Origin: Austwickia chelonae NBRC 105200
GTDB taxonomy: Bacteria; Actinomycetota; Actinomycetes; Actinomycetales; Dermatophilaceae
Length of the DNA: 64,000 nucleotides
Reading direction: 5' to 3'
NCBI RefSeq assembly: GCF_000298175.1
Contig: NZ_BAGZ01000003.1
Span: 1 to 64,000, forward strand
Part shown: positions 41,783 to 54,383 of the stretch, one piece after another
Position numbering within the stretch: the stretch's first letter is position 1
How the letters are laid out: each line of letters begins with the position of its first letter
The notes under the pieces: generated by a model
What the model was told of the DNA's origin: nothing
The model's input: only the letters and a program-made list of their open reading frames with translations
Databases searched by the model: none
Program-made: the position numbers and the translations under genes

Positions 41783-42697
41783 ATGCTCGCGCTGAAGCAG
41801 GTTCGCCAGCTGAGGAAGTTCGACGGCGCCGATGTCGTGGCCGCCCATGCCCCGGAGACCCGTCGACGGTTCTCCGCCGACGGGGGTGTCCCCGTGCTCA
41901 TCGCCGCCCGCAACGAGGAGTCGGATCTGCCGGCGACCCTGCTGACCTTGTCCTGGTCGTCGGTCCCGGTGAGCCCCTACGTCATCGTCAACGGCACCAC
42001 CGACGCCACCGCCGAACGCGCCGAACGCATGGGGGCCTGCGTCCTGGAGTCCACGCAGAGTTTCAAGATGGCGGCCCTGCAGCACGGCGTGGCCACCCTC
42101 CGGAAGCACCGCGGCGGACGCGGCCCCATCCTGTTCACCGACGCCGACACCCTCGTCGGTCTGGAGTGGGCGGCGGTCATGGCCCGCACCTGCCGTGCCT
42201 GGTCCCGACCCGTCGTCACCCTGGGGAACTCGGTCTTCACCCACGGGGAGAGCAGCGCGGCCGACATGCTGCGCAGCGTACGCAAGGTGATGGTCGCCGA
42301 GGTGCGCGACCGACGCGGGCAACGGGCCCTGGCCCACGGCCACAACATGGCGATCGACTTCGCCGATTCGGCCGAGGCCTTCCGCGCCTACCTGGACATC
42401 GACCCGGCGCGTTTCATCGGTGAAGAGGAAGAGATCGTGGAACGTCTCCTGGAGGTCGGCGGAGAATGGCGTCCGGCCTTGGGCTCCAAGACCCTGGTCA
42501 TCACCCGAGGGGACCGCTTCGTCCTGTCCGATCTGTGGCAGCTGCGCAGCGACCACACCTTCGAACAGCGTCGGCAACGCTACGCCGAGTACGGAGAGAT
42601 CAAACCTTTCGTCCGCGCCGAGGACGCTTCGACCAACGGAACGGTCTCCGCCACCAGGATCGACGACACCCTCTCCTCCGGACGACGGGTCTCCTGA
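41783..42697 (+). CDS. Family 2 glycosyltransferase
   Basis: 304 residues from ATG 41783 with GGGGACGAGGACGAG upstream. GT-A fold: GVPVLIAARNEESDLPATLL, VIVNGTTDATAERAERMG, then the metal-binding ILFTDADTLVG (DAD). AHGHNMAIDFADS, then FIGEEEEIVERLLE near the acceptor side. No membrane helices obvious; peripheral enzyme. First gene of the exopolysaccharide locus on the plus strand, 111 nt before the first GH26-like gene. Confidence 0.86.
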   Translation: MLALKQVRQLRKFDGADVVAAHAPETRRRFSADGGVPVLIAARNEESDLPATLLTLSWSSVPVSPYVIVNGTTDATAERAERMGACVLESTQSFKMAALQHGVATLRKHRGGRGPILFTDADTLVGLEWAAVMARTCRAWSRPVVTLGNSVFTHGESSAADMLRSVRKVMVAEVRDRRGQRALAHGHNMAIDFADSAEAFRAYLDIDPARFIGEEEEIVERLLEVGGEWRPALGSKTLVITRGDRFVLSDLWQLRSDHTFEQRRQRYAEYGEIKPFVRAEDASTNGTVSATRIDDTLSSGRRVS

Positions 42698-42808
42698 GCC
42701 GCCCGGTGCAGGTTTCGACCGCCTCCACGGCGGGTAGGGGGCGAACAACTCGGGGATGAGATCCAGGCCGCCCCGGCCTGGGCCGTATCGTCCCAGGAGG
42801 ATCCGTCG

Positions 42809-44182
42809 ATGTTCCCGCGCCCGCCCCGATGTCGTTCCGCCGTCGTGATCACCGCCCTCGCGGCGCTCCTCCTCTCCAGCACACTCCCGTCCGCGGCCAC
42901 CGCCGCGGAACCAGCGGCTCCGCAACCGTCCGCCGCCGCGAAGACAGCAACCGAACGAACCGAGTTGGTCCTGCGCTTCCTGCTCCATTCGACCGAGGTG
43001 CGGTGGACGGAGGACCGTTCTCCCGCCGCCGGATGGCTGGTCTCCGTGACCACGGGCCACAGCACCCACACCCAGGTCGTGCCGGGCGCCCGCCGGAGCC
43101 ATTTCTTCACCGACGTGGTCGTCGGGCAGCGCTACACCTTCGTCGTGACCAACCAGGACACCGGCGCCACCCGGTCGGCCTCGGCGGTCTTCCCCCGGCC
43201 GGGAATCTTCACCCCGTCTCCGCCCACCACCGAGCCACTCCCGCCGGTGGGCAATGCGACCTCGCGCCTGCTGGGCCCCTCCCGCTCCGGCAAGCCCTGG
43301 TTCTCCGGAGCGTGGGTCGCCGGAGGAACATGGGGTCCTCAACGGGCCGAGGAATGGGGCACTTTCCGCGGCTCCCCCAATGACGCCACCGTCTCCTACT
43401 CCCACAAGGAATCCTTCGCCCGGATCGCCGAGAGCGACTGGAATGTCTCGGTCTTCAACGGCTTCCCGGGGAAACTCGTCTACGGACTGTCGCTGCTCCC
43501 CCAGGACGGCACCGGCTCGTTGAGCACCGTGGCCCGCGGCGACCACGACCACATCTGGCGCGCGCAGGCCCGTGTCCTCCTCGCCCACGGGCGAGGCGAT
43601 GCGGTCGTCCGGATCGGATGGGAGGCCAACGGGGACTGGTGGCCCTGGCAGGCCACCGTGTCGACTGCCCCGGCCTACCGGGCTGCTTTCGCCCGGGTGT
43701 CCCGGACGCTGAAATCGGTCGCTCCGAAGCTCCTGGTGGACTTCGGCATCGGGTGTGGTGCGGGGATTCCCGGGCAGCGTTCCCGATTGGACGCGTTGAC
43801 CGTCCTCTACCCGGGTGACGACGTCGTCGACCTCGTGGGCTGCGATACCTACGACTGGTGGAACACCCGGTCGACCGATGAGGCCTCCTTCGCCCGGACC
43901 ATCCGCCCCGCTCAGGCTCCGGGCATCGCCGATGTCGCCGATTTCGCTCGGGCGCACCGCAAGGGGATGAGCGTTCCGGAGTGGGGAACGGCCGATGTGA
44001 GCAGGCAGGGTGCCGGTGACAACCCCTTCTACATCCGCAAGATGTACGAGTGGTTCATGGCGAACAGCGATGTGCTCGTCCTGGAGTGTTTCTTCAACGA
44101 GCCCGGACCGGGGGTGTCGAACTCGTTGTGGTCGCCGGTGCAGATGCCGCGGGCCTCGGCGGAGTACGCCCGGCTCTTCTGA
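42809..44182 (+). CDS. Secreted GH26-like glycoside hydrolase
   Basis: 457 residues from ATG 42809 (AGGAGG 7 nt upstream). A Sec signal peptide (about 1-32, ending SAATAAEP) is followed by an FnIII/Ig-like region (about 50-128) and a (beta/alpha)8-like domain (about 160-457). Putative acid/base E272 is in VRIGWEANGDWWPW, and the nucleophile E391 is in SVPEWGTADV, the spacing and motifs of GH26 (mannanase/related) enzymes. Likely cleaves or edits the polymer made by the neighbouring genes. A second, lipoprotein-type GH26-like enzyme is encoded at 51522. Confidence 0.78.
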   Translation: MFPRPPRCRSAVVITALAALLLSSTLPSAATAAEPAAPQPSAAAKTATERTELVLRFLLHSTEVRWTEDRSPAAGWLVSVTTGHSTHTQVVPGARRSHFFTDVVVGQRYTFVVTNQDTGATRSASAVFPRPGIFTPSPPTTEPLPPVGNATSRLLGPSRSGKPWFSGAWVAGGTWGPQRAEEWGTFRGSPNDATVSYSHKESFARIAESDWNVSVFNGFPGKLVYGLSLLPQDGTGSLSTVARGDHDHIWRAQARVLLAHGRGDAVVRIGWEANGDWWPWQATVSTAPAYRAAFARVSRTLKSVAPKLLVDFGIGCGAGIPGQRSRLDALTVLYPGDDVVDLVGCDTYDWWNTRSTDEASFARTIRPAQAPGIADVADFARAHRKGMSVPEWGTADVSRQGAGDNPFYIRKMYEWFMANSDVLVLECFFNEPGPGVSNSLWSPVQMPRASAEYARLF

Positions 44183-44191
44183 TCCTGTGGG

Positions 44192-44235
44192 AACGCCCTG
44201 GGCGTCGGCGGTGGAGCGCCGGCGCCCAGGGCGTT
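44192..44235. terminator. Convergent 19-bp hairpin
   Basis: AACGCCCTGGGCG (44192-44204) pairs with 44223-44235, and the stem continues inward (CGGCG with CGCCG plus one G-U), leaving a 6-nt loop. It separates the GH26-like gene from the convergent acyltransferase operon end. Confidence 0.75.
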
Positions 44236-44253
44236 GTCCTGCTGTTGTCCGGG

Positions 44254-44877
44254 TCAGCCGAGTTTGCGGGCGGGGATACCCACGTAGGTGGCGCCGGGTT
44301 CCAGGCAGTCCTTGGTGACGACCGCGCCGGCCCCGATGAGCACCTTGGGTCCGATGGTGACTCCGGGGCAGATCAGTGCGCGTGCTCCGATGTAGCAGTC
44401 CTTGCTCAGGGTGACGGGTCGTCCTTCCATGCCGCGGGAGATCCGGCCGTCTTCGAGCCGCGGGTGGTGGGAGGTGATGATGACGACCTGGTGGCCGATC
44501 ATCACGTCCTCCTCGATGGTGACCTTCCCGGTGGCTTCGATCATGACGTCGTGGTTGATGGTGGTGTTCCGGCCGATGCTCAGGTACGAGCCGTCCCGGA
44601 TGTAGAGCTTCAGCCCGGGGTAGATGTCGACGGCTTTGACGTCCAAGCCCATCAGCCGGTAGCCGAGCAGGCGCACCGGGCGAGGGACGAGGGTGGAGCC
44701 GAGTACCGAGTTCAGCAGGGCGTTGTACGACATGAACTTCCACTCGGTCCGCACCAGGCGGAGCACCCTGGTCCGCAGGGCCTCGGATTTCTTTTCGTCC
44801 GCTGCGGTCGTCCCCTCTCGGCCGTCGTCGGTCGATGGCGTGCGTGTCGCTCTGTCGGTGGTCGTCACACTGGTCAC
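44254..44877 (-). CDS. Hexapeptide-repeat acyltransferase (LbH type)
   Basis: 207 residues from GTG 44877 (4-nt GTGA overlap with the upstream stop); GTG 44868 has a better-spaced AAGGG. The left-handed beta-helix repeat is visible (LSIGRNTTINHDVMIEATGK, VTIEEDVMIGHQVVIITSHH, VTIGPKVLIGAGAVVTKD), ending with YVGIPARKLG, as in WbbJ/maltose-O-acetyltransferase-type enzymes. The His in SHHP would be catalytic. Likely O- or N-acetylates the exopolysaccharide repeat unit. Last gene of the five-gene operon. Confidence 0.88.
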   Translation of the reverse strand: MTSVTTTDRATRTPSTDDGREGTTAADEKKSEALRTRVLRLVRTEWKFMSYNALLNSVLGSTLVPRPVRLLGYRLMGLDVKAVDIYPGLKLYIRDGSYLSIGRNTTINHDVMIEATGKVTIEEDVMIGHQVVIITSHHPRLEDGRISRGMEGRPVTLSKDCYIGARALICPGVTIGPKVLIGAGAVVTKDCLEPGATYVGIPARKLG

Positions 44878-46058
44878 CCTTCTTCGTTCTTGTCCGCCAC
44901 GAGCTCGGTCAGTGGCTCGAGTGCCGCCGCCCAGCTGTACCACCGCAGACCGTGTTCGATCGCATCGGCGGAGAGCACCGCGGGGCCTTCGTCGAGGGCG
45001 GTGCGTACTGCGGCGCAGAAGACCTCGGCGTCCTCGGGGACCTGTGTGACAGCTCCCTGCGGCAGATGGTCCAGACCGGAGGCACCTACATAGGTGGACA
45101 CCGAGGGTAACCCGTGAGCGATGTACTCCAGGAGTTTGATCCGCGATCCGCCCCCTTCGAGGAGGGGGGCGACGCCGAGCCTGGCCCGTTCCAGGAGCGG
45201 TTTCATGTCCGGGACGTCCGCTTCGACACGCACCGAGGGCGCGGCTGCCATGTCGGCGAGGAACTCCGGGGAGGGGCGACGTCCTGCGACGGTCAGGACG
45301 AGCCCGGGTCGTTCGGCGCAGAGCCTCTTCCAGGCGTCGCTGGCGACCAGCCAGCGAAGGCCTGAGGTGTTGGGCCCCCAGTCCAGGGCTCCGGTGAACA
45401 GCAGCTCCTGGGAGGTCTCGGCCTCCGGGCCACGGGCCGAGTCGGTCACCGGGTCGACGCCGTTGCGGGCGACCACGGAGGCTTTGGCTCCGCCGCGGGA
45501 GAGGAGCTCGTCGACATCGGCCTGCGTGCAGACGACGGTCGGCAGGTCGGCCGCGGATCGTTCCTGGGCGAGCAGCCAGCGGTGTTCGACCGCGGCCACG
45601 ATCTTGCGGATGCCCTGTTCGGCTCCGATGCGCTGTTTCATCAGGTCGGACTCGACGTTGTGCATGCTCGCCACCACGGGAAGGTCCGCGGGGAGCAGGC
45701 TGCGCACCCGGAGCAGGCAGGTGTGGTCCAGCACGGCCGCGTCGTAGCAGACGTCCTGGCGGAGGGCGTCACGAACGGCGTCCAGCAGCCCTTGTCCGCA
45801 GGTGCGGGCCCCGCCGACGGTCCGGTAGGTCGCGAAGGTCTTCAGGTTGTCCCGGATGCCGTGGGTGCGTCCCGGTGCGATGGTGACGAAGTCGTCCCTG
45901 GACCCTTCCGGGAGCTGCCACAGACCTCCGGGGTGGGCGATGGTCACCTCCCCGACCGTGGCCAGGGCACGGGCTATGGCCAAGGTGCGCAGCATGCCCC
46001 CGGAGCGGGCGGGCAGGCCGAACTCTTTGGTGATGAGCAGGATCTGTCGTGGGGTCAC
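44874..46058 (-). CDS. Family 4-type glycosyltransferase
   Basis: 394 residues from GTG 46058 that overlaps the Wzx stop by 4 nt. GT-B fold: N-terminal PRQILLITKEFGLPARSGGM, then the donor-binding half with LLFTGALDWGPNTSGLRWLV and APLLEGGGSRIKLLEYIAHG (E-x7-E region). Probably adds a sugar to the lipid-linked repeat in the cytoplasm. Coupled to the acyltransferase downstream by GTGA. Confidence 0.9.
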   Translation of the reverse strand: MTPRQILLITKEFGLPARSGGMLRTLAIARALATVGEVTIAHPGGLWQLPEGSRDDFVTIAPGRTHGIRDNLKTFATYRTVGGARTCGQGLLDAVRDALRQDVCYDAAVLDHTCLLRVRSLLPADLPVVASMHNVESDLMKQRIGAEQGIRKIVAAVEHRWLLAQERSAADLPTVVCTQADVDELLSRGGAKASVVARNGVDPVTDSARGPEAETSQELLFTGALDWGPNTSGLRWLVASDAWKRLCAERPGLVLTVAGRRPSPEFLADMAAAPSVRVEADVPDMKPLLERARLGVAPLLEGGGSRIKLLEYIAHGLPSVSTYVGASGLDHLPQGAVTQVPEDAEVFCAAVRTALDEGPAVLSADAIEHGLRWYSWAAALEPLTELVADKNEEG

Positions 46059-47596
46059 AAGACCGCCTCTCGTTCGACGTCGACGAACACCTTCCATGTC
46101 AGAGCAGCACCGATACTCTGAGCGATGGCAAATCCGGTAGCGGCTCCGACGGCTCCGCCGATCCAGGCCCCGGAGAGTCCCAACAGTGCCATCAGTGGCG
46201 CCTGGACCAAGGTGATCCGGAGCAGTCGGGCGGATTCCTCCCGGGCTTTCAAGGCCAGGTTGGGGCCGACGGCTACGCCCACCATGATCACCGCCCACCC
46301 TGTGGCCGGGATGGTGGCTTCCGCGCCGGCCCAGTTACGGTCCAACAGGGCGACCCCCCAGCTGCGGGGAATCATCATCAGGCAGAACACCCAGGCCGCG
46401 GCTACGGCGGAGAGTCCTCCGCTCACCACACAGGCCAGTCCGATCAGGGTCCGATGGCTGCGCGCCGACATGGCCGGGAGCACCATCGCCGTCGACCCAC
46501 CGAACAGCATGGACAACGGTCCGAGCAGGCTGCGTGAGGCGTTCAGCGCCCCGACCGTCGCCAATGAGCTGATCGGGCCCAGGGCGACATTGGTGCCGTT
46601 GAACGACCCTTGACTGATCGTGAAGTCCGCGCCGAACTGGGCGGAGAGTTTCCAGTGCCCGCCCAACCAGTGCAGGCAACCTCGTAGAACTGCGGGTTTC
46701 CTGGCCTGCACTGCGCCCAGTGCCGAGGCGATATAGGCCGAGGCTCCCCACACCAGGATCATCGTCGCGCTGTTGATCACCGAGTTCCGGTGGAGCCAGA
46801 TCACCAGGGCGAACATCAGGACAGTCCGGATGGTGTCATTGATCGCGACCGGCCGGGGTCGTCCGGTCATGAAGAAGACGAAACGCCAGGCGTCCTGTTG
46901 GAGGAGCCCGGGCAGCACCAGGGCCAGGCTGATCAGGGAAGCACCGATCACGCTGGAGGTCCCCAGGAAGAGCCCGGTCAGGAAGGTGGGCAGTGCACCG
47001 GCGATCCCGAGCAGGGTGGCCAGTCCGATCGCCTTGGGTACGGCGGCGGCCTGGGCTTCGGCGTCCTCCTTGGCGTAGATCACGACCATCGGGTCGGTGA
47101 CCGTGGACCGGGAGAGCCCCACCAGGAAGGTGAACACCAGGAAGGCGATGGAGAAGGCGCCGAAGGCCTCTTCTCCGACGGAACGTCCGACGAGTATCGC
47201 CAGCGCGAAGGTGGACAGGCTGCAGACGGCCTGGTCGGCGAAGACCCAGAAGGCCGGACCGCCGAACTTTTTCAGGAATCCGCCTTCGGCCTGGGCCGGG
47301 GGGTGCAGTTCCTCCACCTCGGCGGGTGGTTTCAGCTCGATGTCCGTCGAGGGCCGTCGTCGTTCCTGGCGGATCGGCGGATCGGGTTCTTCGCCTTCCC
47401 AGGGGTCGTGGAGCTGTGCGACCACGGCGTCGTGGTATTCGATCTTCCCTGCCCAGGGTGGCGGGGTCGGCGGGTCGTCCCAGGCGGGTGTTCCCCTGCC
47501 GTTTCTCCGAGGAGCGCGTGGGGGGAGCTCCTCCCAGGGGTCGTCGCCATGTCTTCCCGGGCCGGCGGGATCGTCATCGCGACGGGCACGCCTCAC
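46055..47596 (-). CDS. Wzx-type polysaccharide flippase (MOP superfamily)
   Basis: 513 residues from GTG 47596, which overlaps the polymerase stop by 4 nt. An unusual N-terminal about 100 residues are soluble, Pro/Arg/Glu-rich (DDPWEELPPRAPRRNGRG; LKPPAEVEELHPPAQAEGG), then about twelve to fourteen transmembrane helices beginning AFWVFADQAVCSLSTFALAI. It would flip the lipid-linked repeat to the outer face. The N-terminal extension is not usual for Wzx. Confidence 0.86.
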   Translation of the reverse strand: MRRARRDDDPAGPGRHGDDPWEELPPRAPRRNGRGTPAWDDPPTPPPWAGKIEYHDAVVAQLHDPWEGEEPDPPIRQERRRPSTDIELKPPAEVEELHPPAQAEGGFLKKFGGPAFWVFADQAVCSLSTFALAILVGRSVGEEAFGAFSIAFLVFTFLVGLSRSTVTDPMVVIYAKEDAEAQAAAVPKAIGLATLLGIAGALPTFLTGLFLGTSSVIGASLISLALVLPGLLQQDAWRFVFFMTGRPRPVAINDTIRTVLMFALVIWLHRNSVINSATMILVWGASAYIASALGAVQARKPAVLRGCLHWLGGHWKLSAQFGADFTISQGSFNGTNVALGPISSLATVGALNASRSLLGPLSMLFGGSTAMVLPAMSARSHRTLIGLACVVSGGLSAVAAAWVFCLMMIPRSWGVALLDRNWAGAEATIPATGWAVIMVGVAVGPNLALKAREESARLLRITLVQAPLMALLGLSGAWIGGAVGAATGFAIAQSIGAALTWKVFVDVEREAVL

Positions 47597-48975
47597 GCGC
47601 CTGCCCCTGCGGGCATCCGCTTCGCAGGCCAGTCCCCGATCCGGGTGTGGGGGATGCCGTCCACGACGGCCGGGGCGTCCTCGGCTCCGGGTTCGGGCAG
47701 CGGTCGACGCCAGATCACCAGCATGAGCCATGCCATCAGACAGGTGTTCGGTTGCAGCAGTGCTCCGGACAGGAACATCAGCATGAACACCATGCTCGGC
47801 CCGAGAAGGGGGATCGACAGGGGTCTGAGCATCGAGTACAGGATGAAGGCCAGGAAGAGCCCGCCGGCGAAGGCCCCGTACTCGAAGAGCAGCTTGGCCG
47901 GGATCGTGTAGACCACGGCCTGGCCGAGGCCTCGAGCGCTGGTGAGCAACCGTTCACTGGTTCCCGGGCCTGCTCCTCGCACCACTCTCAGCGGGTCTTT
48001 CTCCAGCCCTTGGATCACCTGGTCGTAGGGGTCGATGAAACGTAGCGACCCGGAGCTCCCGCTCTGTCCGATCTCGTCGGAGCGTTCGAGCAGGGGGGCG
48101 GCAGCCGGTGAGAGGAGCATACCGATCAGCCCGACCACGGCCAGGGCGATGAAGGCCGGGCGCAGCAGTCGGGGGCGCAGCAGGACGATCAGGGTGACCC
48201 CGACGCCGAGGAGCATCATCCCGGTGCCGGAGGTCGCACCGATCAGCCCCAGAGCCGGTCCGACGAGTGCGGCGAGCCGCAGCCGCAGGGCCAGTCCGAC
48301 GATCAGGGCCAGTCCGCACGACTGGGAGAGCATCGACGGCTCGAGGAAGACGAAGGCATGGGCCCGGTAGATGCCCGACCCGTAGGTGAGCATGGCCGCC
48401 GAGTTGAACCCGGGGATGAGGAAGGCTTCGGGAACTTGACCGAGATAGTCGGTGTACGACCAGATCCGGAGGAACTGCACGGTCAGTTGGACGAAACCGA
48501 CGACCCCGAAGACGCTCATCAACATCACGTAGAACCGGCCGAGTTCGGTCATGCATTCGCGCAGGTCGTCGCGTACTCGGAGGATCCAGGGCGTGTAGAG
48601 CATCATCAGGAACAGGAAGGAGGTCATGGAGGCCTCCGCCTGGGTCTGTCCGGCCAGCCAGGACAGGAAGGCCATCGAGCTCGTGGCGATCAGGAAGAGC
48701 ACCGTCGCCCGGCGGGAGATCACCGCGGTGCCCCAGGCCACCATCAGTGCGGCGCCGAGCAGGAGGAGGAGCAGGGTGACCGGGATCCCGCCGGGGACCT
48801 GGAAGCGTTGGAGGACGATGGATCCTACGAGGAGCCACTTCAGCAGTGCCATGGTTCGTCGAACCTGCCGACGCGGGTGTTCCGCGTCGGGGTCGTGTAC
48901 GGGGCGGGCGAAGAGATCTGCGGTCTCCGCAGGCCGTTCACGATCGACTGCTTCGGAAGCGGCGCCTTTCCTCAT
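47593..48975 (-). CDS. Wzy-type polymerase / O-antigen ligase-like
   Basis: 460 residues from ATG 48975 (ATGA overlap with the upstream glycosyltransferase stop). About ten to twelve transmembrane helices after a 45-residue cytoplasmic leader. FLEPSMLSQSCGLALIVGLA and a periplasmic-type loop LRFIDPYDQVIQGLEKDPLR fit the O-antigen polymerase/ligase family. Would polymerise repeats on the outer leaflet. Sequence conservation in this family is low, so the exact class rests on topology and context. Confidence 0.8.
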   Translation of the reverse strand: MRKGAASEAVDRERPAETADLFARPVHDPDAEHPRRQVRRTMALLKWLLVGSIVLQRFQVPGGIPVTLLLLLLGAALMVAWGTAVISRRATVLFLIATSSMAFLSWLAGQTQAEASMTSFLFLMMLYTPWILRVRDDLRECMTELGRFYVMLMSVFGVVGFVQLTVQFLRIWSYTDYLGQVPEAFLIPGFNSAAMLTYGSGIYRAHAFVFLEPSMLSQSCGLALIVGLALRLRLAALVGPALGLIGATSGTGMMLLGVGVTLIVLLRPRLLRPAFIALAVVGLIGMLLSPAAAPLLERSDEIGQSGSSGSLRFIDPYDQVIQGLEKDPLRVVRGAGPGTSERLLTSARGLGQAVVYTIPAKLLFEYGAFAGGLFLAFILYSMLRPLSIPLLGPSMVFMLMFLSGALLQPNTCLMAWLMLVIWRRPLPEPGAEDAPAVVDGIPHTRIGDWPAKRMPAGAGA

Positions 48976-49925
48976 CGGTCGCCACGCCGCCCAGGGGGCT
49001 GTTCGGTCTCCTGCATCCGGGCGCGTGCGACCTCCTGCCCTCCGACGTGGGCGCTGCGGGTGACGACCCCGGCGACATAGGAGCAGAACCCGCGGGCTTC
49101 GTCCTTGTCCCCTTGGAACTGTCGTTGCACGGCGCGCATGCCGTTGCCGGCGGCCAGGGCGACTCGGATCGCAGGTGCTTCCAACGGGTGGTAGCGCTTG
49201 ACGTAGTTCGCGATGGAGGCTCCTCGCATCCGGAGCATCTCCTCGGAGGGCGCTCCGGAATTCCCTGCGCCGTGCTTGACCTTCACGTCGGCGCGCAGGA
49301 CCTGGCGCAGGCCGACGTTGCGTGCCCGTCGTCCCAGGGAGAGATCCTCGCAGTAGACGTAGAAGCTCTCGTCGAAACCTCCGACCCGGAGGAAGTCCTG
49401 GCGGCGGACAGCCATGCAGGCTCCGGTCGTCCAGTCGACCTCGATGTGCTGGCTGTGGGACGGCTTGGCGTAGAGACCGGAGGAGGGCAGGGCCTTGTGC
49501 AGACCGAAACCGAACACGAGGGCCCGACGGACGGAAGGTTCCCATCCGCCGACGCCGATCTCGATCTCACCGTCATGGCTCGTCATGGTGGCGGCGTGGG
49601 AGAGCGCCGTGTGGTCCTGGCTGAGACCTTCGACCAGATTCGAGAGATCGTCGACCGTGGGCGTGCAATCCGGATTGACGAATATGACATATGGCGTTTT
49701 TGACCGTAAAGCACCTTTATTGGCGGCCCGGGCAAATCCCTGCCCTTGGCCGTCGACATAAGTTACCCAGGGACAACTTTCCGGAAGAGAGGACAAACCA
49801 TCGACATCTCTTGCATTGTCCACCACGATCACGGAGATGGCCTCTCCCCAGGCATGAACGAGACGTTCAACCAGGGGGGCACTGCGGTAGGAGACAAGCA
49901 CGATCTCGAACTGTGGTACAGCCAC
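48972..49925 (-). CDS. Family 2 glycosyltransferase (rhamnosyl-type)
   Basis: 317 residues from GTG 49925 (GGGGGAG 10 nt upstream). FEIVLVSYRSAPLVERLVHA, VIFVNPDCTP (DxD-like Asp), AVRRQDFLRVGGFDESFYVY then EDLSLGRRARNVG are the pattern of GT2 enzymes such as rhamnosyltransferases. First gene of the five-gene minus-strand operon (GT2-Wzy-Wzx-GT4-acyltransferase), all junctions overlapping by 4 nt. Its 5' about 250 nt are markedly AT-richer than the rest. Confidence 0.9.
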   Translation of the reverse strand: MAVPQFEIVLVSYRSAPLVERLVHAWGEAISVIVVDNARDVDGLSSLPESCPWVTYVDGQGQGFARAANKGALRSKTPYVIFVNPDCTPTVDDLSNLVEGLSQDHTALSHAATMTSHDGEIEIGVGGWEPSVRRALVFGFGLHKALPSSGLYAKPSHSQHIEVDWTTGACMAVRRQDFLRVGGFDESFYVYCEDLSLGRRARNVGLRQVLRADVKVKHGAGNSGAPSEEMLRMRGASIANYVKRYHPLEAPAIRVALAAGNGMRAVQRQFQGDKDEARGFCSYVAGVVTRSAHVGGQEVARARMQETEQPPGRRGDR

Positions 49926-50234
49926 TAACAGGACTCCCCCTTGTCGGTCCCAGAAAGGATCGTGGGTCCGGTGAAAGCTCTTGTCTCCCAGCCCCTATAC
50001 CAGCTCATGGGATAGATCTTGACGATAGCTTCTTGCCCACTTGGCGGGGCACAGTGCATATTATCGTAGCCCATGATTTCATCACAGTCGCCTCCTGTGG
50101 AATACTGCCATACGGCAGACCATCAGTCTGTCTAGGCCGGCATCCGCCGCCGGTCAGGGGGAACCGACGACTAGCGGCCAGCAGGAGGCTCGGAGCAAAG
50201 GAGCTCAGCTCACTGCAGCATCTAAGGGGAAGTG
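49926..50234. other. Divergent promoter region of the exopolysaccharide operons
   Basis: 309 bases, AT-richer than most of the window, between two divergent operons. A possible plus-strand promoter is TTGCCC (50033-50038) with CATATT (50057-50062), 18-nt spacer. No gene recognised. Confidence 0.5.
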
Positions 50235-51476
50235 ATGGATAACCGGGTTCGGGGCCTAGGATTAGCCCTTGCGAAATATGGCTATCTCCCGGCCGCGGCA
50301 TTAGTCATCCTCTTTATAGCTGGATATCTGTTCGCCTCGACAAGGGCGACAACCTATGAGGCATCAGCCCGGTTGGTATTCTCCGCGAGCAAAGAATTCG
50401 ACCCGTTCAACCTGAGCCCCAGCTATGACATTCAACGCTTCATGGTCAATCAGTCGGAGCTGATCAAATCCCGACCGGTGATCAACGCCGCCCACTCCAA
50501 GTTGAAGGGCGGGCCCAGCGCCGAGGAGCTGAGGGAACGCGTTCGCGCCGTCGCCCAGAAGGAGGGCGGAGTCGTGGTCGTGAGCGCCAAAGCACCCACT
50601 GCGGAACAGGCCGCAGAGATCGTTAACGCTGTCACGTCGGCATATTCAGAACATGTACAGTCGTCCAACAAGGGACAGGCCAAGAATTTGCCGAAGGGAA
50701 GCGACACCCCGGCGGCTCTGAACGATCTGAACACCAAGGCGTCCGTCTACGGAGACGGCCTGGCTTTACGCGAAAACGCCCAGCCTCCTAGCAAACCCAC
50801 TGCACCCCAGCCACTTCGGGATGCTGTTTTCGCAGGCCTTTTCGGCGCGCTGGGAACACTCGCTTTCCTGACCGTCCGCCACCTGCTCTCGCCCCGCATC
50901 AGAGGAGCCCGCCGCATCGCGGACCGCCTCGGCGTCCCGGTGATCGCCGACAGCTGCGGAGAAGGTGGGGAACAACGTCTGCAGCGAGGCCTGGCCGGGG
51001 TCTACGCCGCAGCCGGCAGCTCCCCCTTGGTCCTGATGGTGATCACCCCGGGGCTGCCCGAACACGCCACCTTGGCCGCCCGCCAATTGGCCCGGGCCCT
51101 GCGCGACATCGAACCGGCCGTGTCCATCCGCAGCCTCGAGGACCTCACCGACATCGACTCGGCCGTGGCTCTGCGCCGCCAGGCCGCCATCACCCTGATC
51201 AGCGCAGAGGAGATCGCCGAGGACTATCGAGTGGTGGCCTACGGGAAGGCGGTCGACGGTGTCATCGCCATGTGCTCACCGATCACTCTCGCCCTCCCCC
51301 TGGACACGACCCGGACCGTGACCAGACAAGCCGGGATCCCGGTGATCGGCGTGGTGGTCACCGACTTCGACGAGGAGACCGGAGCCGCACTGAACGGGCC
51401 GCCCACCACGCAGCCCATCAACGTCCGCACCACCCCCTCGTCGTCCCGACGGGTCCATATCAAGAACAATTCCTGA
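50235..51476 (+). CDS. Wzz-type chain-length protein fused to a degenerate BY-kinase-like domain
   Basis: 413 residues from ATG 50235 (AAGGGGAAG; GTG 50232 is one codon earlier). TM1 about 17-35; an extracellular Wzz/PCP domain to about 185 (TYEASARLVFSASKEFDPFN); Pro-rich PPSKPTAPQPL before TM2 (about 196-217), as in polysaccharide co-polymerases. The cytoplasmic domain (about 225-385) looks like a ParA/BY-kinase fold (IADRLGVPVIAD; VDGVIAMCSPITLALPLDTT; QAGIPVIGVVVTDF) but where Walker A should be there is VITPGLPEHATLAAR with no GKT/S, and there is no Tyr cluster at the end. Likely a non-catalytic regulator of chain length. First gene of the plus-strand operon. The 5' half is low in GC (about 53% in a sampled line), the 3' half high (about 73%). 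Confidence 0.82.
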   Translation: MDNRVRGLGLALAKYGYLPAAALVILFIAGYLFASTRATTYEASARLVFSASKEFDPFNLSPSYDIQRFMVNQSELIKSRPVINAAHSKLKGGPSAEELRERVRAVAQKEGGVVVVSAKAPTAEQAAEIVNAVTSAYSEHVQSSNKGQAKNLPKGSDTPAALNDLNTKASVYGDGLALRENAQPPSKPTAPQPLRDAVFAGLFGALGTLAFLTVRHLLSPRIRGARRIADRLGVPVIADSCGEGGEQRLQRGLAGVYAAAGSSPLVLMVITPGLPEHATLAARQLARALRDIEPAVSIRSLEDLTDIDSAVALRRQAAITLISAEEIAEDYRVVAYGKAVDGVIAMCSPITLALPLDTTRTVTRQAGIPVIGVVVTDFDEETGAALNGPPTTQPINVRTTPSSSRRVHIKNNS

Positions 51477-51521
51477 CCCGCTCCACCCTCCACAGCTACA
51501 GACCAGGGGAAATACAGACAG

Positions 51522-52607
51522 ATGGTCGCTCATTCAGCGCGCAGGAACGATCTCACCCGATTCATGACCGCGCTGGTGACAGCATCACTCCTCCTGACGA
51601 CCGCCTGCGGCACCGGAAAGGAACCAGCTCCTCCCGTCACGTCCGCAGCTGCCCCCACCGGCCCGGCCAATCCCGTCCTGCCCGGGCCGGGGCAACCACC
51701 TCTGACCGGGGTTTTCCGGGGGACCCAGCGCGGCCAGGTCGAGGAGTTCGTCTCCTGGCTGGGCAAGCCGGTCGACGCCGTGATCGACTTCCAGGCCGCG
51801 GCGACCTGGCAGCAGCTCTCCAACCCGTCCTATCTCTTCGACCACTGGGCGGGCTCGCCCTACCGGTTGGTGCTCTCCGTACCGATGCGTCCGTTGAAGG
51901 AGAACGCCGACAACGCCTCCGGCGCCAAGGGCGCCTATGACGCCCACTTCGCCACCCTCGGCAAGGAACTCGTCAAACGCGGATATGCAGATGCCATGAT
52001 CCGGGTCGGCTGGGAATACAACATGGAGGGTTCGTATTCCTATGCCACGGATCCCGCATCGTTCAATGCTTACTTCCGCAGAATTGCCTCCGTCCTCCGG
52101 TCCACCCCCGGGCAACGCTTCACCTTGATCTGGAACCCGGGAAACGGGAGCCAAGGTGTCACTCAGGACGCCAGCCGCTTTTACCCCGGGGATGACGTGG
52201 TGGATGTCATCGGGATAGATATCTATGACACCGGATTCCACCCGAAAGGGTATCCATATCCAGCGGACTGCGACCAAGAATGCCGCGCGCAACGTTCCAC
52301 TTTCATGTGGGACAACGTCATCTACGGTGGCGAACGTGGTCTGAAATTTTGGACGGACTTTGCACGGGCTCGCAACAAACCCATGGCTTTCCCGGAATGG
52401 GGCCTCTGGTCCGGAACCAAATATCCGGGCGGAGACGACAACAGCGATTTTGTCGATCGCATGAACGGATTCATCAAAGATCCGGCAAATCGAGTCGTCA
52501 TGCATTCATATTTCGAATGGGACAATGAGGGTGACACCCACTCTCTCGTCAAAAATTTCCCGAAGGCCGGGGCCCACTTCAAAGCAGAATGGGGAAAGAG
52601 TTCATGA
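51522..52607 (+). CDS. Lipoprotein GH26-like glycoside hydrolase
   Basis: 361 residues. Signal with LLTTAC (Cys about 29) suggests a lipoprotein, then a Pro-rich linker and a (beta/alpha)8-like domain (about 58-360). Putative acid/base E165 is in IRVGWEYNMEG and nucleophile E292 in MAFPEWGLW, with NPGNGSQ and YPGDDVVDVIGIDIYD between, as in GH26. 45 nt after the Wzz-type gene and overlapping the next glycosyltransferase by 4 nt, so clearly part of the polymer operon. The first GH26-like gene (42809) shares WE(A/Y)N and PEWG motifs. The 3' third is low-GC. Confidence 0.8.
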   Translation: MVAHSARRNDLTRFMTALVTASLLLTTACGTGKEPAPPVTSAAAPTGPANPVLPGPGQPPLTGVFRGTQRGQVEEFVSWLGKPVDAVIDFQAAATWQQLSNPSYLFDHWAGSPYRLVLSVPMRPLKENADNASGAKGAYDAHFATLGKELVKRGYADAMIRVGWEYNMEGSYSYATDPASFNAYFRRIASVLRSTPGQRFTLIWNPGNGSQGVTQDASRFYPGDDVVDVIGIDIYDTGFHPKGYPYPADCDQECRAQRSTFMWDNVIYGGERGLKFWTDFARARNKPMAFPEWGLWSGTKYPGGDDNSDFVDRMNGFIKDPANRVVMHSYFEWDNEGDTHSLVKNFPKAGAHFKAEWGKSS

Positions 52608-53509
52608 AAAGGTCATCCCCGGCAAAACTCAGCGTCGTCATCGCCTGCTTCAACGCTTCGGAGACTCTTGCCGAACAACTGGAGTCCCTGGCCACCCAGA
52701 ACTGCGATCTGCCATGGGAGGTGATCCTGGCCGACAACGGGTCCACCGATCACTCGGTCGCGATCGCGGAGACCTATGCCCACAGGATCCCGCTGCGGGT
52801 GATCGACGCCGGAGAACGCCGCGGACCGGCACACGCCCGTAACCGCGGCGTCGAGGCCGCCGAGGGAGAGTGGGTCGCCTTCTGCGATGCCGATGACATC
52901 GTCGGAACCGGCTGGGTGGCAGCAGCCTGCGCCGCCATGGACAGCCACCCGTTCGTCGCCGGCCAGATCGACGTCACCCGGCTCAACTCCGAGCGCCTGG
53001 CCCGCACCCGCCGTATGGAACAGCAGGAAGGTCTCCAGCCGGGGAGCAGCAACAGCCTGGGACTCCCCCACGCCGGATCGGGAAATATGGCCATCCACCG
53101 GCAGATCTTCCTGGACGTCGGCGGCTTCGACGAGGAAATGCCCTGCCTGGAGGACACCGACCTGTGCTGGCGGGTCCAGCTGCGCGGAACTCCACTGGAG
53201 TACGCCCCGGACATGATGGTGCACACCCGACTCCGTTCGACGCTGGGCGGCACGCTCCGGCAGGGACTCGACTACGGTCGGGGCTACACCCGACTGGAGG
53301 AGCGCTACGGCAGTCTCGCCCCCCAGGTGACGCCGGTGGAACGCTCCCAAGGTCAGCATCTCCCGGAGTCCTCGGTCGGCGCGGCCCTGCGCACCCTCTT
53401 CCTGGTCCCCACCGTACGTGGGGTGACCTGGCAGCTGGCGTGGCATCTCGGACGCCGCACCGCCACGCCCTCGCCGGAGGCCTCCCCACCGCCGCTCCCC
53501 CGAAGCTGA
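52604..53509 (+). CDS. Family 2 glycosyltransferase
   Basis: 301 residues from ATG 52604, inside an ATGA overlap with the glycosidase stop and with GGGGAAAG upstream. GT-A motifs: LSVVIACFNASETLAEQLES, ILADNGSTDHS, WVAFCDADDIVGTGW (DxD), GGFDEEMPCLEDTDLCWR (ED). Adds a sugar to the growing repeat. GC returns to normal after the first about 30 nt. Confidence 0.92.
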   Translation: MKRSSPAKLSVVIACFNASETLAEQLESLATQNCDLPWEVILADNGSTDHSVAIAETYAHRIPLRVIDAGERRGPAHARNRGVEAAEGEWVAFCDADDIVGTGWVAAACAAMDSHPFVAGQIDVTRLNSERLARTRRMEQQEGLQPGSSNSLGLPHAGSGNMAIHRQIFLDVGGFDEEMPCLEDTDLCWRVQLRGTPLEYAPDMMVHTRLRSTLGGTLRQGLDYGRGYTRLEERYGSLAPQVTPVERSQGQHLPESSVGAALRTLFLVPTVRGVTWQLAWHLGRRTATPSPEASPPPLPRS

Positions 53510-53567
53510 CATCCCGCGCACTGCCTCTCCCGGCAGGCGTCCCACCTCTCCAGAGACGGACCGTACC

Positions 53568-54383
53568 GTGAGCATCGTCCTCGTCCGACGTCGTTATGTC
53601 TGTGCCTATGAGAGCGGGCCCCGCCCCCTCGAACGTCTCGGCCCCCAGATCGGGCCACTCGCGCTGCTGAGCAGTCCGTTCACGGTGCTCAGCTCCGCGG
53701 TCACCGACCGCAGGATCATTGCCCTGACCTACGACGACGGGCCGGATCCCGATCACACCCCGCAGGTGCTGGACGCGCTCCGGGACATCGGAGTCCCGGC
53801 GACCTTCTTCGTCCTGGCCGAGAACGCCATCCGTCACCCCGAGCTCGTCCGACGGATGGTCGAGGAAGGCCACGAGGTCGGCCTGCACGGCCTCGACCAC
53901 GACAGGGTCTCGGCCCTCGACTTCCGGGTGTCGGTCCAGAGCATCCTGAGCGCACGGGCGACCCTGTCCCGGCTGACCGGACGGCCTGTCCGGTGGTACC
54001 GGCCCGCCTACGGAGCGATCCGCATGTCTCAGCTGGTCGCGCTCCGCGCCGCCGGACTGGACATCCCGGTCTGGACGGCCTGGGCCAGGGACTGGGAAGA
54101 CGTCCCCACACAGGTGTTGGTCGACCGGGCCGTCGCCGCGCTGCATCCCGGGGGGATCCTGCTGTTGCACGATGCCTCCTCCGGGATGTTGCCCGATGCC
54201 GAGGGGACGACCTCCGTCCCGAGCTTCGACCGGGGCGAGCTCACCCGGCGTCTGGCTCGGGCGGTACTCGACGAGGGGTATGTCGCGTTGAGATTGAGCG
54301 ACCTGGCTACGGCAGCACCCCAGGCACGGGTGCCCTGGTTCGAGCGGAAAGCCGCCGCGCGAGCGGCGGTCCCAGCCGGATAG
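53568..54383 (+). CDS. Polysaccharide deacetylase (NodB-like, CE4)
   Basis: 271 residues from GTG 53568. NodB motifs: TYDDGPD (motif 1, catalytic Asp-Asp), EVGLHGLDHDRVS (motif 2, His-His metal ligands), RPAYGA (motif 3), and LLLHDA (motif 5). No signal peptide is evident, which is odd for an enzyme acting on exported polymer; it may act on cytoplasmic or lipid-linked sugar, or the true start may be elsewhere. Last gene of the operon, 58 nt after the glycosyltransferase. Confidence 0.88.
   Translation: MSIVLVRRRYVCAYESGPRPLERLGPQIGPLALLSSPFTVLSSAVTDRRIIALTYDDGPDPDHTPQVLDALRDIGVPATFFVLAENAIRHPELVRRMVEEGHEVGLHGLDHDRVSALDFRVSVQSILSARATLSRLTGRPVRWYRPAYGAIRMSQLVALRAAGLDIPVWTAWARDWEDVPTQVLVDRAVAALHPGGILLLHDASSGMLPDAEGTTSVPSFDRGELTRRLARAVLDEGYVALRLSDLATAAPQARVPWFERKAAARAAVPAG

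Follow-up and report, generated by a model that had tools for sequence, protein, structure and literature searches.

GH26 glycoside hydrolases are best known for mannan degradation. The closest described system with such an enzyme is the wps-1 cluster of Actinoplanes missouriensis, which was the sole direct match among the matches listed in the open-licence literature (PMC13390465). According to the accessible parts of that 2026 paper, its authors knew of no earlier characterisation of a Wzx/Wzy cluster that includes a GH26 enzyme, and deletion of the cluster's GH26 gene, wpsE, left partly abnormal sporangia and a slightly lower number of released spores. The same parts report that Actinoplanes GimA and GimB cut the polymer of the sporangium matrix at distinct sites, which may, by analogy, be a parallel for two enzymes acting on one polymer. 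In exopolysaccharide (EPS) loci more generally, hydrolases influence how long the polymer is and how the matrix behaves mechanically, and some of them break up biofilms, as described in the excerpts available of two further papers (PMC9894940, PMC5933820); the hydrolase activity of PelA makes a secreted low-mass form of Pel (PMC9894940), and a PgaB hydrolase needed an active deacetylase to cut poly-N-acetylglucosamine (PNAG) that was made in situ (PMC5933820). Here we analyse an EPS locus of Austwickia chelonae NBRC 105200 that encodes two GH26-like enzymes, GH26A and GH26B. It occupies positions 41783-54383 of the window, a 64,000-nucleotide stretch of the genome (NZ_BAGZ01000003.1, positions 1 to 64,000). 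We consider it probable that this is a Wzx/Wzy EPS locus whose two GH26-like endo-glycosidases cut its own polymer outside the cell.

The two GH26-like enzymes and their locus

The initial annotation of the window had predicted two distinct GH26-like enzymes, one soluble and one a lipoprotein. This distinction was borne out, as GH26A has a signal peptide and GH26B an LLLTTAC lipobox (both read in the sequence) and the two fall in separate tree groups. Single-sequence scores against the Pfam GH26 model are marginal, with GH26B at 21.5 bits against a cut-off of 20.2 and GH26A below it at 18.8. A profile of 36 sequences (alignment A3) matches the GH26 lichenase in the PDB over its full length with E 2e-21, and mannanases from 8e-19. 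The acid/base and nucleophile residues are E272 and E391 in GH26A and E165 and E292 in GH26B. In the profile alignment this pair aligns with the catalytic residues of the lichenase; neither Glu varies in alignments A3 and A4, and each position holds Glu in 129 of 133 GH26-like domains. The AlphaFold models have a mean pLDDT of 82 each, and the top structural match of both is GH26 lichenase, with Z 26.5 for GH26A (2.6 Å over 260 residues) and Z 25.6 for GH26B (2.6 Å over 261 residues).

Sequence similarity, the catalytic Glu pair and the barrel fold thus place both proteins with GH26. A His before the acid/base Glu is a general trait of GH26 rather than a formal criterion. The residue at this position is Trp in 120 of the 133 domains and His in one, whereas the lichenase has His, and because of this replacement we use the label GH26-like. 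Judged from sequence and models, GH26A and GH26B are functional-looking GH26-like enzymes and putative endo-glycosidases. The fold shared by the models does not show their function. Mannanase activity was not chosen, with mannanases ranked lower for both models (Z about 21-22) than GH26 lichenase, AlXyn26A (titled MLXase) and a β-1,3-xylanase (Z 23.5-26.5). The FnIII-like domain proposed initially for GH26A held up in part: a β unit at about residues 50-127, ahead of a catalytic domain at about residues 150-457, has seven strands in the model at modest confidence, and this part of the protein is without a Pfam match. True fn3 domains are present in a relative from genome G003.

The locus was placed on contig C31 of the 3.54 Mb genome. 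All eleven genes of the initial annotation were found at their coordinates by family search and homology, with Wzy the weakest. They form three blocks, GT2a-GH26A on the plus strand, the acyltransferase, GT4, Wzx, Wzy and GT2b on the minus strand, and Wzz, GH26B, GT2c and NodB on the plus strand. The genes are as follows, with some identities to the congener G002.

41783..42697, plus strand: GT2a, GT2 glycosyltransferase; weak match to NCBIfam EpsU (2.5e-5), without Pfam match; 94% identity in G002
42809..44182, plus strand: GH26A, secreted GH26-like enzyme; Pfam GH26 1.1e-3, just under cut-off
44254..44943, minus strand: hexapeptide (LbH) sugar acyltransferase; Pfam Hexapep 1.2e-12; start uncertain
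44874..46100 (end about), minus strand: GT4 glycosyltransferase; Pfam Glyco_trans_1_4 2.9e-16; open reading frame to 46298, start uncertain
46055..47431 (end about), minus strand: Wzx-type flippase, by homology only; open reading frame to 47731, start uncertain; 94% in G002
47593..48852, minus strand: putative Wzy-type polymerase, polytopic, the weakest assignment, by position and hydrophobicity; 93% in G002
48972..49925, minus strand: GT2b, GT2 glycosyltransferase; Pfam Glycos_transf_2 7e-10
50232..51476, plus strand: Wzz-type chain-length protein; TIGR01006 3.1e-12, under its cut-off, without Pfam match
51522..52607, plus strand: GH26B, GH26-like lipoprotein; Pfam GH26 1.7e-4, just over cut-off
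52589..53509, plus strand: GT2c, GT2 glycosyltransferase; NCBIfam EPS_EpsD 3.8e-31, under its cut-off
53568..54383, plus strand: NodB-type polysaccharide deacetylase; Pfam Polysacc_deac_1 8.2e-31

The four glycosyltransferases, Wzx and the Wzz-type protein are placed by homology and Wzy by a weak match, and among the gene names of the locus those of Wzx and Wzy are the least certain. The Wzx sequence itself gave no Pfam match; its assignment comes from a G003 protein (L068:12625-14115) with 27% identity (E 3e-29) that is a Polysacc_synt_3 match. Wzy is 29% identical to a protein of the same G003 locus with seven predicted membrane stretches; it gave no Pfam match, and a profile comparison against Wzy_C proteins was likewise empty. 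The acyltransferase matched NCBIfam galactoside and maltose acetyltransferase models with scores under their cut-offs. The C-terminal region of the Wzz-type protein resembles a degenerate tyrosine-kinase domain in which the nucleotide-binding motif was not seen. The deacetylase has a NodB/CE4 domain with the motifs TYDDGP, HGLDH, RPAYG and LLHDA, which we take to be its metal-binding and catalytic motifs, and no signal peptide was seen in its sequence. Neither a tyrosine phosphatase nor an outer exporter occurs among the family matches of the locus, for which no dedicated search was made; an outer exporter is not expected in a monoderm. Scans for promoters (0 found, 1.0 expected by chance) and terminators (7 found, 5.6 expected) gave nothing above chance.

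Conservation, recurrence and origin

G002 keeps the complete set of eleven genes in unchanged order, 86-95% identical except for GH26A at 78%. It is the sole relative found with the same locus, and it carries both GH26 genes. The dN/dS values between the two genomes are 0.04-0.21 for the locus genes, 0.037 for GH26B and 0.077 for the catalytic domain of GH26A, against 0.70 for the fast-changing N-terminal part of GH26A; these ratios indicate that both GH26 catalytic domains are under purifying selection. Because G002 keeps 11 of 11 genes in order with low dN/dS, the gene arrangement is more than chance. Another congener, G001, was without a match for GH26-like genes at E 1e-3, for GT2b at E 1e-70 and for Wzx at E 1e-20, and we count this joint absence in favour of a link between the GH26 enzymes and the pathway. 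Among 186 family genomes, GH26-like genes were found in 16 (E 1e-10), GT2b in 14 and Wzx homologues in 18. All 14 genomes with GT2b also carry GH26-like genes and a Wzx homologue; GT2b homologues of at least 53% identity occur in 13 other family genomes, every one with GH26-like genes. The link proposed in the initial annotation is therefore upheld by the presence of both genes in G002 and of GH26-like genes in 14 of 14 GT2b genomes. G064 and G109 have GH26-like genes without GT2b.

A neighbourhood of priming transferase, GT2b and GH26-like gene, in some cases with GT4, recurs in L074, L077, L079, L103, L221, L223 and L224. GT4 homologues of 47-57% identity lie a few kb from GH26 in L074, L077 and L079, and in L077 the GH26 protein carries a pair of malectin domains. 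Close GH26B orthologues in the family were found in A. chelonae and G002 only (91%), and the next match is 36% identical. Three consecutive GH26A-type genes, one of them read with an inner stop, lie in L070 (G008:C50), with EPS genes not found nearby. A Dermatophilaceae strain near Mobilicoccus was reported to make a flocculating EPS, according to the excerpts available of two papers (PMC8400323, PMC8779670).

The initial annotation could name no described system with this gene set; a wider survey, in which GH26-like genes recur in EPS loci, does not support the idea of an unprecedented combination. A named-genome scan, in which the best 80 of 157 relatives were kept, gave 79 loci. We called a locus EPS-like if the fetched stretch held at least one glycosyltransferase together with Wzx, Wzy, Wzz or a priming transferase. 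By this definition, 28 of 40 GH26 loci in Pseudomonadota were EPS-like, compared with 2 of 20 control stretches from pseudomonad genomes (Fisher P 9e-6), and 6 of 35 in Actinomycetota, compared with 0 of 20 controls from actinobacterial genomes (Fisher P 0.056), in counts for which the seeds came partly from counted loci (L093, L123, L160, L068, L083), the loci are interrelated and the stretch lengths vary. None of three unassigned loci and not the single Armatimonadota locus among the best 80 of 157 relatives were EPS-like. One Sphingomonas and one Bradyrhizobium locus were examined with Pfam. In the A. chelonae genome and its relatives, 11 of the 27 GH26 stretches fetched were EPS-like.

A GH26B match (E 1e-15) was found in 17 of 396 sampled genomes of the phylum, 13 of the 17 in a single genus, identified as Streptomyces from 11 chaplin matches in each of five of its genomes tested, in a sample where at least one Streptomyces-genus genome (G330) is without a match and unlisted ones may lack it too. 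All 17 GH26B-type matches of Streptomyces were fetched. In 13 of them the match ends a conserved EPS locus, with genes for Wzx, Wzy, NodB, a glycosyltransferase, a Wzz-type protein and a GNAT acyltransferase (L215 and parts of L210 were checked with Pfam). The GT4 seed was off-frame in the Streptomyces locus scan and in the comparison of priming neighbourhoods, and the results used rest on other seeds. Of the 13 EPS-type Streptomyces loci, 10 (L210, L212, L214, L215 and L225-L230) have chaplin genes in the fetched stretch together with GH26, against none of the four loci that are not EPS-type. This proximity suggests that the GH26/NodB EPS locus of Streptomyces may be tied to the aerial-hypha surface.

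The pair itself was also held to be unusual, yet two GH26 genes occur together with Wzx in L083, L093 and L094 as well. Two-GH26 loci with EPS genes are L093 (a Kineosporiaceae metagenome-assembled genome (MAG), with Wzx and NodB), L094/L068 (G003), L122 and L156 (Burkholderiaceae) and L130 (Frankia), and the Microlunatus locus L083 has two GH26 genes, Wzx and a priming enzyme, with a glycosyltransferase not found. Since the other typed pairs (G003, L093, L083) are all of GH26A type, the combination of an A-type with a B-type enzyme is known from the genus Austwickia only.

We rejected a recent tandem duplication as the origin of the pair, as GH26A and GH26B fall in separate tree groups, which were defined after the first tree had been viewed. 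GH26A lies within an actinobacterial group (support 99 in the first tree and in a 110-row tree). GH26B groups with pseudomonad enzymes, mostly from EPS loci (support 99 in an 87-row tree and 91 in the first tree), and in the 110-row tree it falls within a 39-row set that includes Streptomyces (support 97). The 87-row tree was obtained from 109 rows by removing 8 with long branches or odd composition and thinning out 14 near relatives; for the 110-row tree the same rows plus one more were dropped and 24 were added. An alternative topology with GH26B among Actinomycetota was not rejected (AU p 0.0765). GH26B also has the lowest G+C content of the locus (60.0%, third positions 71.5%) and, at 1.43, a higher dS to G002 than the other EPS genes (0.5-0.9). 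These values are compatible with foreign origin, replacement or recombination, and are not proof of any of them.

Proposed pathway and alternative explanations

The initial annotation saw no initiating sugar-phosphate transferase in the locus, and correctly so, as the two PF02397 genes of the genome both lie on contig C26 and provide two candidates, one of them an orphan. The orphan (G000:C26:285102-286655) sits between the genes for ribosomal L25 and an mfd-like protein, with a GT4 gene adjoining. The second belongs to a separate EPS-type cluster on C26 (L066) with its own Wzx, Wzy_C protein, glycosyltransferases and DegT aminotransferase. We regard the orphan as the better candidate of the two for priming this locus. 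Priming enzymes encoded in the GT2b/GH26 stretches of seven relatives share 57-63% identity with it. Six of those seven genomes have a closer copy elsewhere (66-71%), the seventh, G016, has a single match, and G001 keeps the orphan enzyme (81%) without GT2b or GH26; because of these closer copies and the retention in a GH26-less congener, we rejected the orphan as a sure priming partner. A priming transferase inside the locus is not required for the pathway if it is encoded elsewhere.

In the pathway that we propose, a transferase from outside the locus, most probably the orphan, would prime the chain, and the four glycosyltransferases would build a lipid-linked repeat unit. The acyltransferase and a cytosolic NodB would set the acetylation state of this unit inside the cell. 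Intracellular deacetylation has a parallel in the holdfast deacetylase HfsH. Wzx would then flip the repeat unit, and Wzy and Wzz would polymerise it. GH26B, as a lipoprotein at the membrane face, may trim or release nascent chains; a possible GT2c start, ATG 52604, overlaps the GH26B stop as ATGA, and we count this overlap in favour of a role in the pathway. GH26A, soluble and with an FnIII-like domain, may remodel released or wall-associated polymer in the matrix.

Several observations weigh against cleavage of the locus's own polymer by the two enzymes. No measured activity of any member of the GH26-like branch was found among the matches listed in the open-licence literature, and the Wzy name is weak. 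The shared distribution of GT2b, GH26 and Wzx may reflect few independent events, because the genera are related. Not EPS-like were 12 of the 40 pseudomonad GH26 loci, 16 of the 27 stretches from A. chelonae and its relatives and 4 of the 17 Streptomyces loci, and the link in the named Actinomycetota loci is the weaker one. A third GH26-like gene of the genome, of GH26A type (G000:C12:73819-74811, L064), adjoins a GHL10 hydrolase gene rather than EPS genes; it lies about 5 kb from a staphylopine-dehydrogenase-like gene. In view of such copies outside EPS loci, part of the GH26-like family may degrade other glycans.

This third copy would also suit a scavenging or defensive role, in which GH26A is a glycanase against foreign β-glycans that came to lie in the locus by chance and GH26B alone acts in the pathway. 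The fast-evolving N-terminal part of GH26A agrees with such a role, as do close GH26A relatives in stretches of Mobilicoccus and Piscicoccus that are not EPS-like (L084, L085, L087, L089, L090, with three consecutive genes in L084). We nevertheless think it unlikely, given that GH26A is co-directional with GT2a, lies 111 bases away from it and is kept in G002, that GH26A-type enzymes occur in EPS loci of G003 and the Kineosporiaceae MAG and beside Wzx in Microlunatus, and that all GH26 copies are absent from G001 along with GT2b and Wzx. Both enzymes might instead work as transglycosylases, which would attach the polymer to, or crosslink it with, the cell wall or other chains. Transglycosylation is chemically possible for the GH26-type catalytic pair, which acts by a retaining mechanism, and the extracellular placement of both enzymes and an active site unlike that of lichenase, with Trp for His before the acid/base Glu, would fit. 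Against this activity, the family matches of GH26B include no wall-binding domain, and known EPS-locus hydrolases process their own polymer, according to the available excerpt of PMC9894940; we consider transglycosylation improbable. The same exchange of His for Trp could be taken as a sign that the two proteins are inactive or carbohydrate-binding pseudo-enzymes, an explanation that we give hardly any credence because neither catalytic Glu varies in A3 or A4 and the catalytic domains are under purifying selection.

Own-polymer cleavage by two endo-glycosidases thus remains our preferred explanation. We put forward a broader idea only tentatively, and would not expect it to hold in full: the 'GWE' GH26-like branch might be a general processing enzyme of Wzx/Wzy EPS in Actinomycetota and Pseudomonadota, and the Austwickia locus might pair two members that parted long ago and cleave a single polymer at different linkages, with GH26B acquired from outside the family and cleavage perhaps dependent on the deacetylation state set by NodB. 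Enzymes with new specificity may be found in a GH26-like branch that is linked to EPS loci of two phyla, and a locus with two of them is a natural setting in which to test how labour is divided.

Comparison with known systems

CtLic26A (PDB 2cip, 2bv9) resembles GH26A and GH26B in its fold and catalytic Glu pair and differs in having only 17-20% identity to them and a His before the acid/base residue, where the two enzymes have Trp. The PelA and PgaB pathways are synthase-dependent. They resemble the Austwickia locus in that a deacetylase and a hydrolase belong to the EPS machinery and act on its own polymer, and differ, as far as the excerpts of the two papers go, in that both activities reside in one protein and the hydrolases belong to other GH families, GH153 for PgaB (PMC9894940, PMC5933820). 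NodB is by comparison a separate protein with no signal peptide seen. The Streptomyces EPS locus, with the order GT-PGT-Wzy-Wzx-NodB-GT-Wzz-GNAT-GH26, has the same functional set, including NodB, an acyltransferase and a GH26B-type enzyme with Wzx/Wzy; no paper on it was found among the matches listed in the open-licence literature. It differs in having one GH26, its own priming transferase (12 of 13 stretches), a MurJ-like flippase and another gene order, and it often lies near chaplins.

The wps-1 cluster is likewise an actinomycete Wzx/Wzy/Wzz locus with an embedded GH26 gene (WpsE) and modification genes (PMC13390465), and it was studied genetically in 2026. As presented in the accessible parts of that paper, it has one GH26, two sulfotransferases, a methyltransferase and a kinase-like protein, and those parts do not describe a NodB deacetylase or a hexapeptide acyltransferase, both of which are present in the Austwickia locus. 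The sulfotransferases of a wps-1-type cluster have no counterpart among the Pfam matches of the ten Austwickia proteins scanned (four without any match), and the eleventh (52589-53509) matches glycosyltransferase-type models. Set beside these systems, the Austwickia locus is real, functional-looking and less unusual than was initially held.

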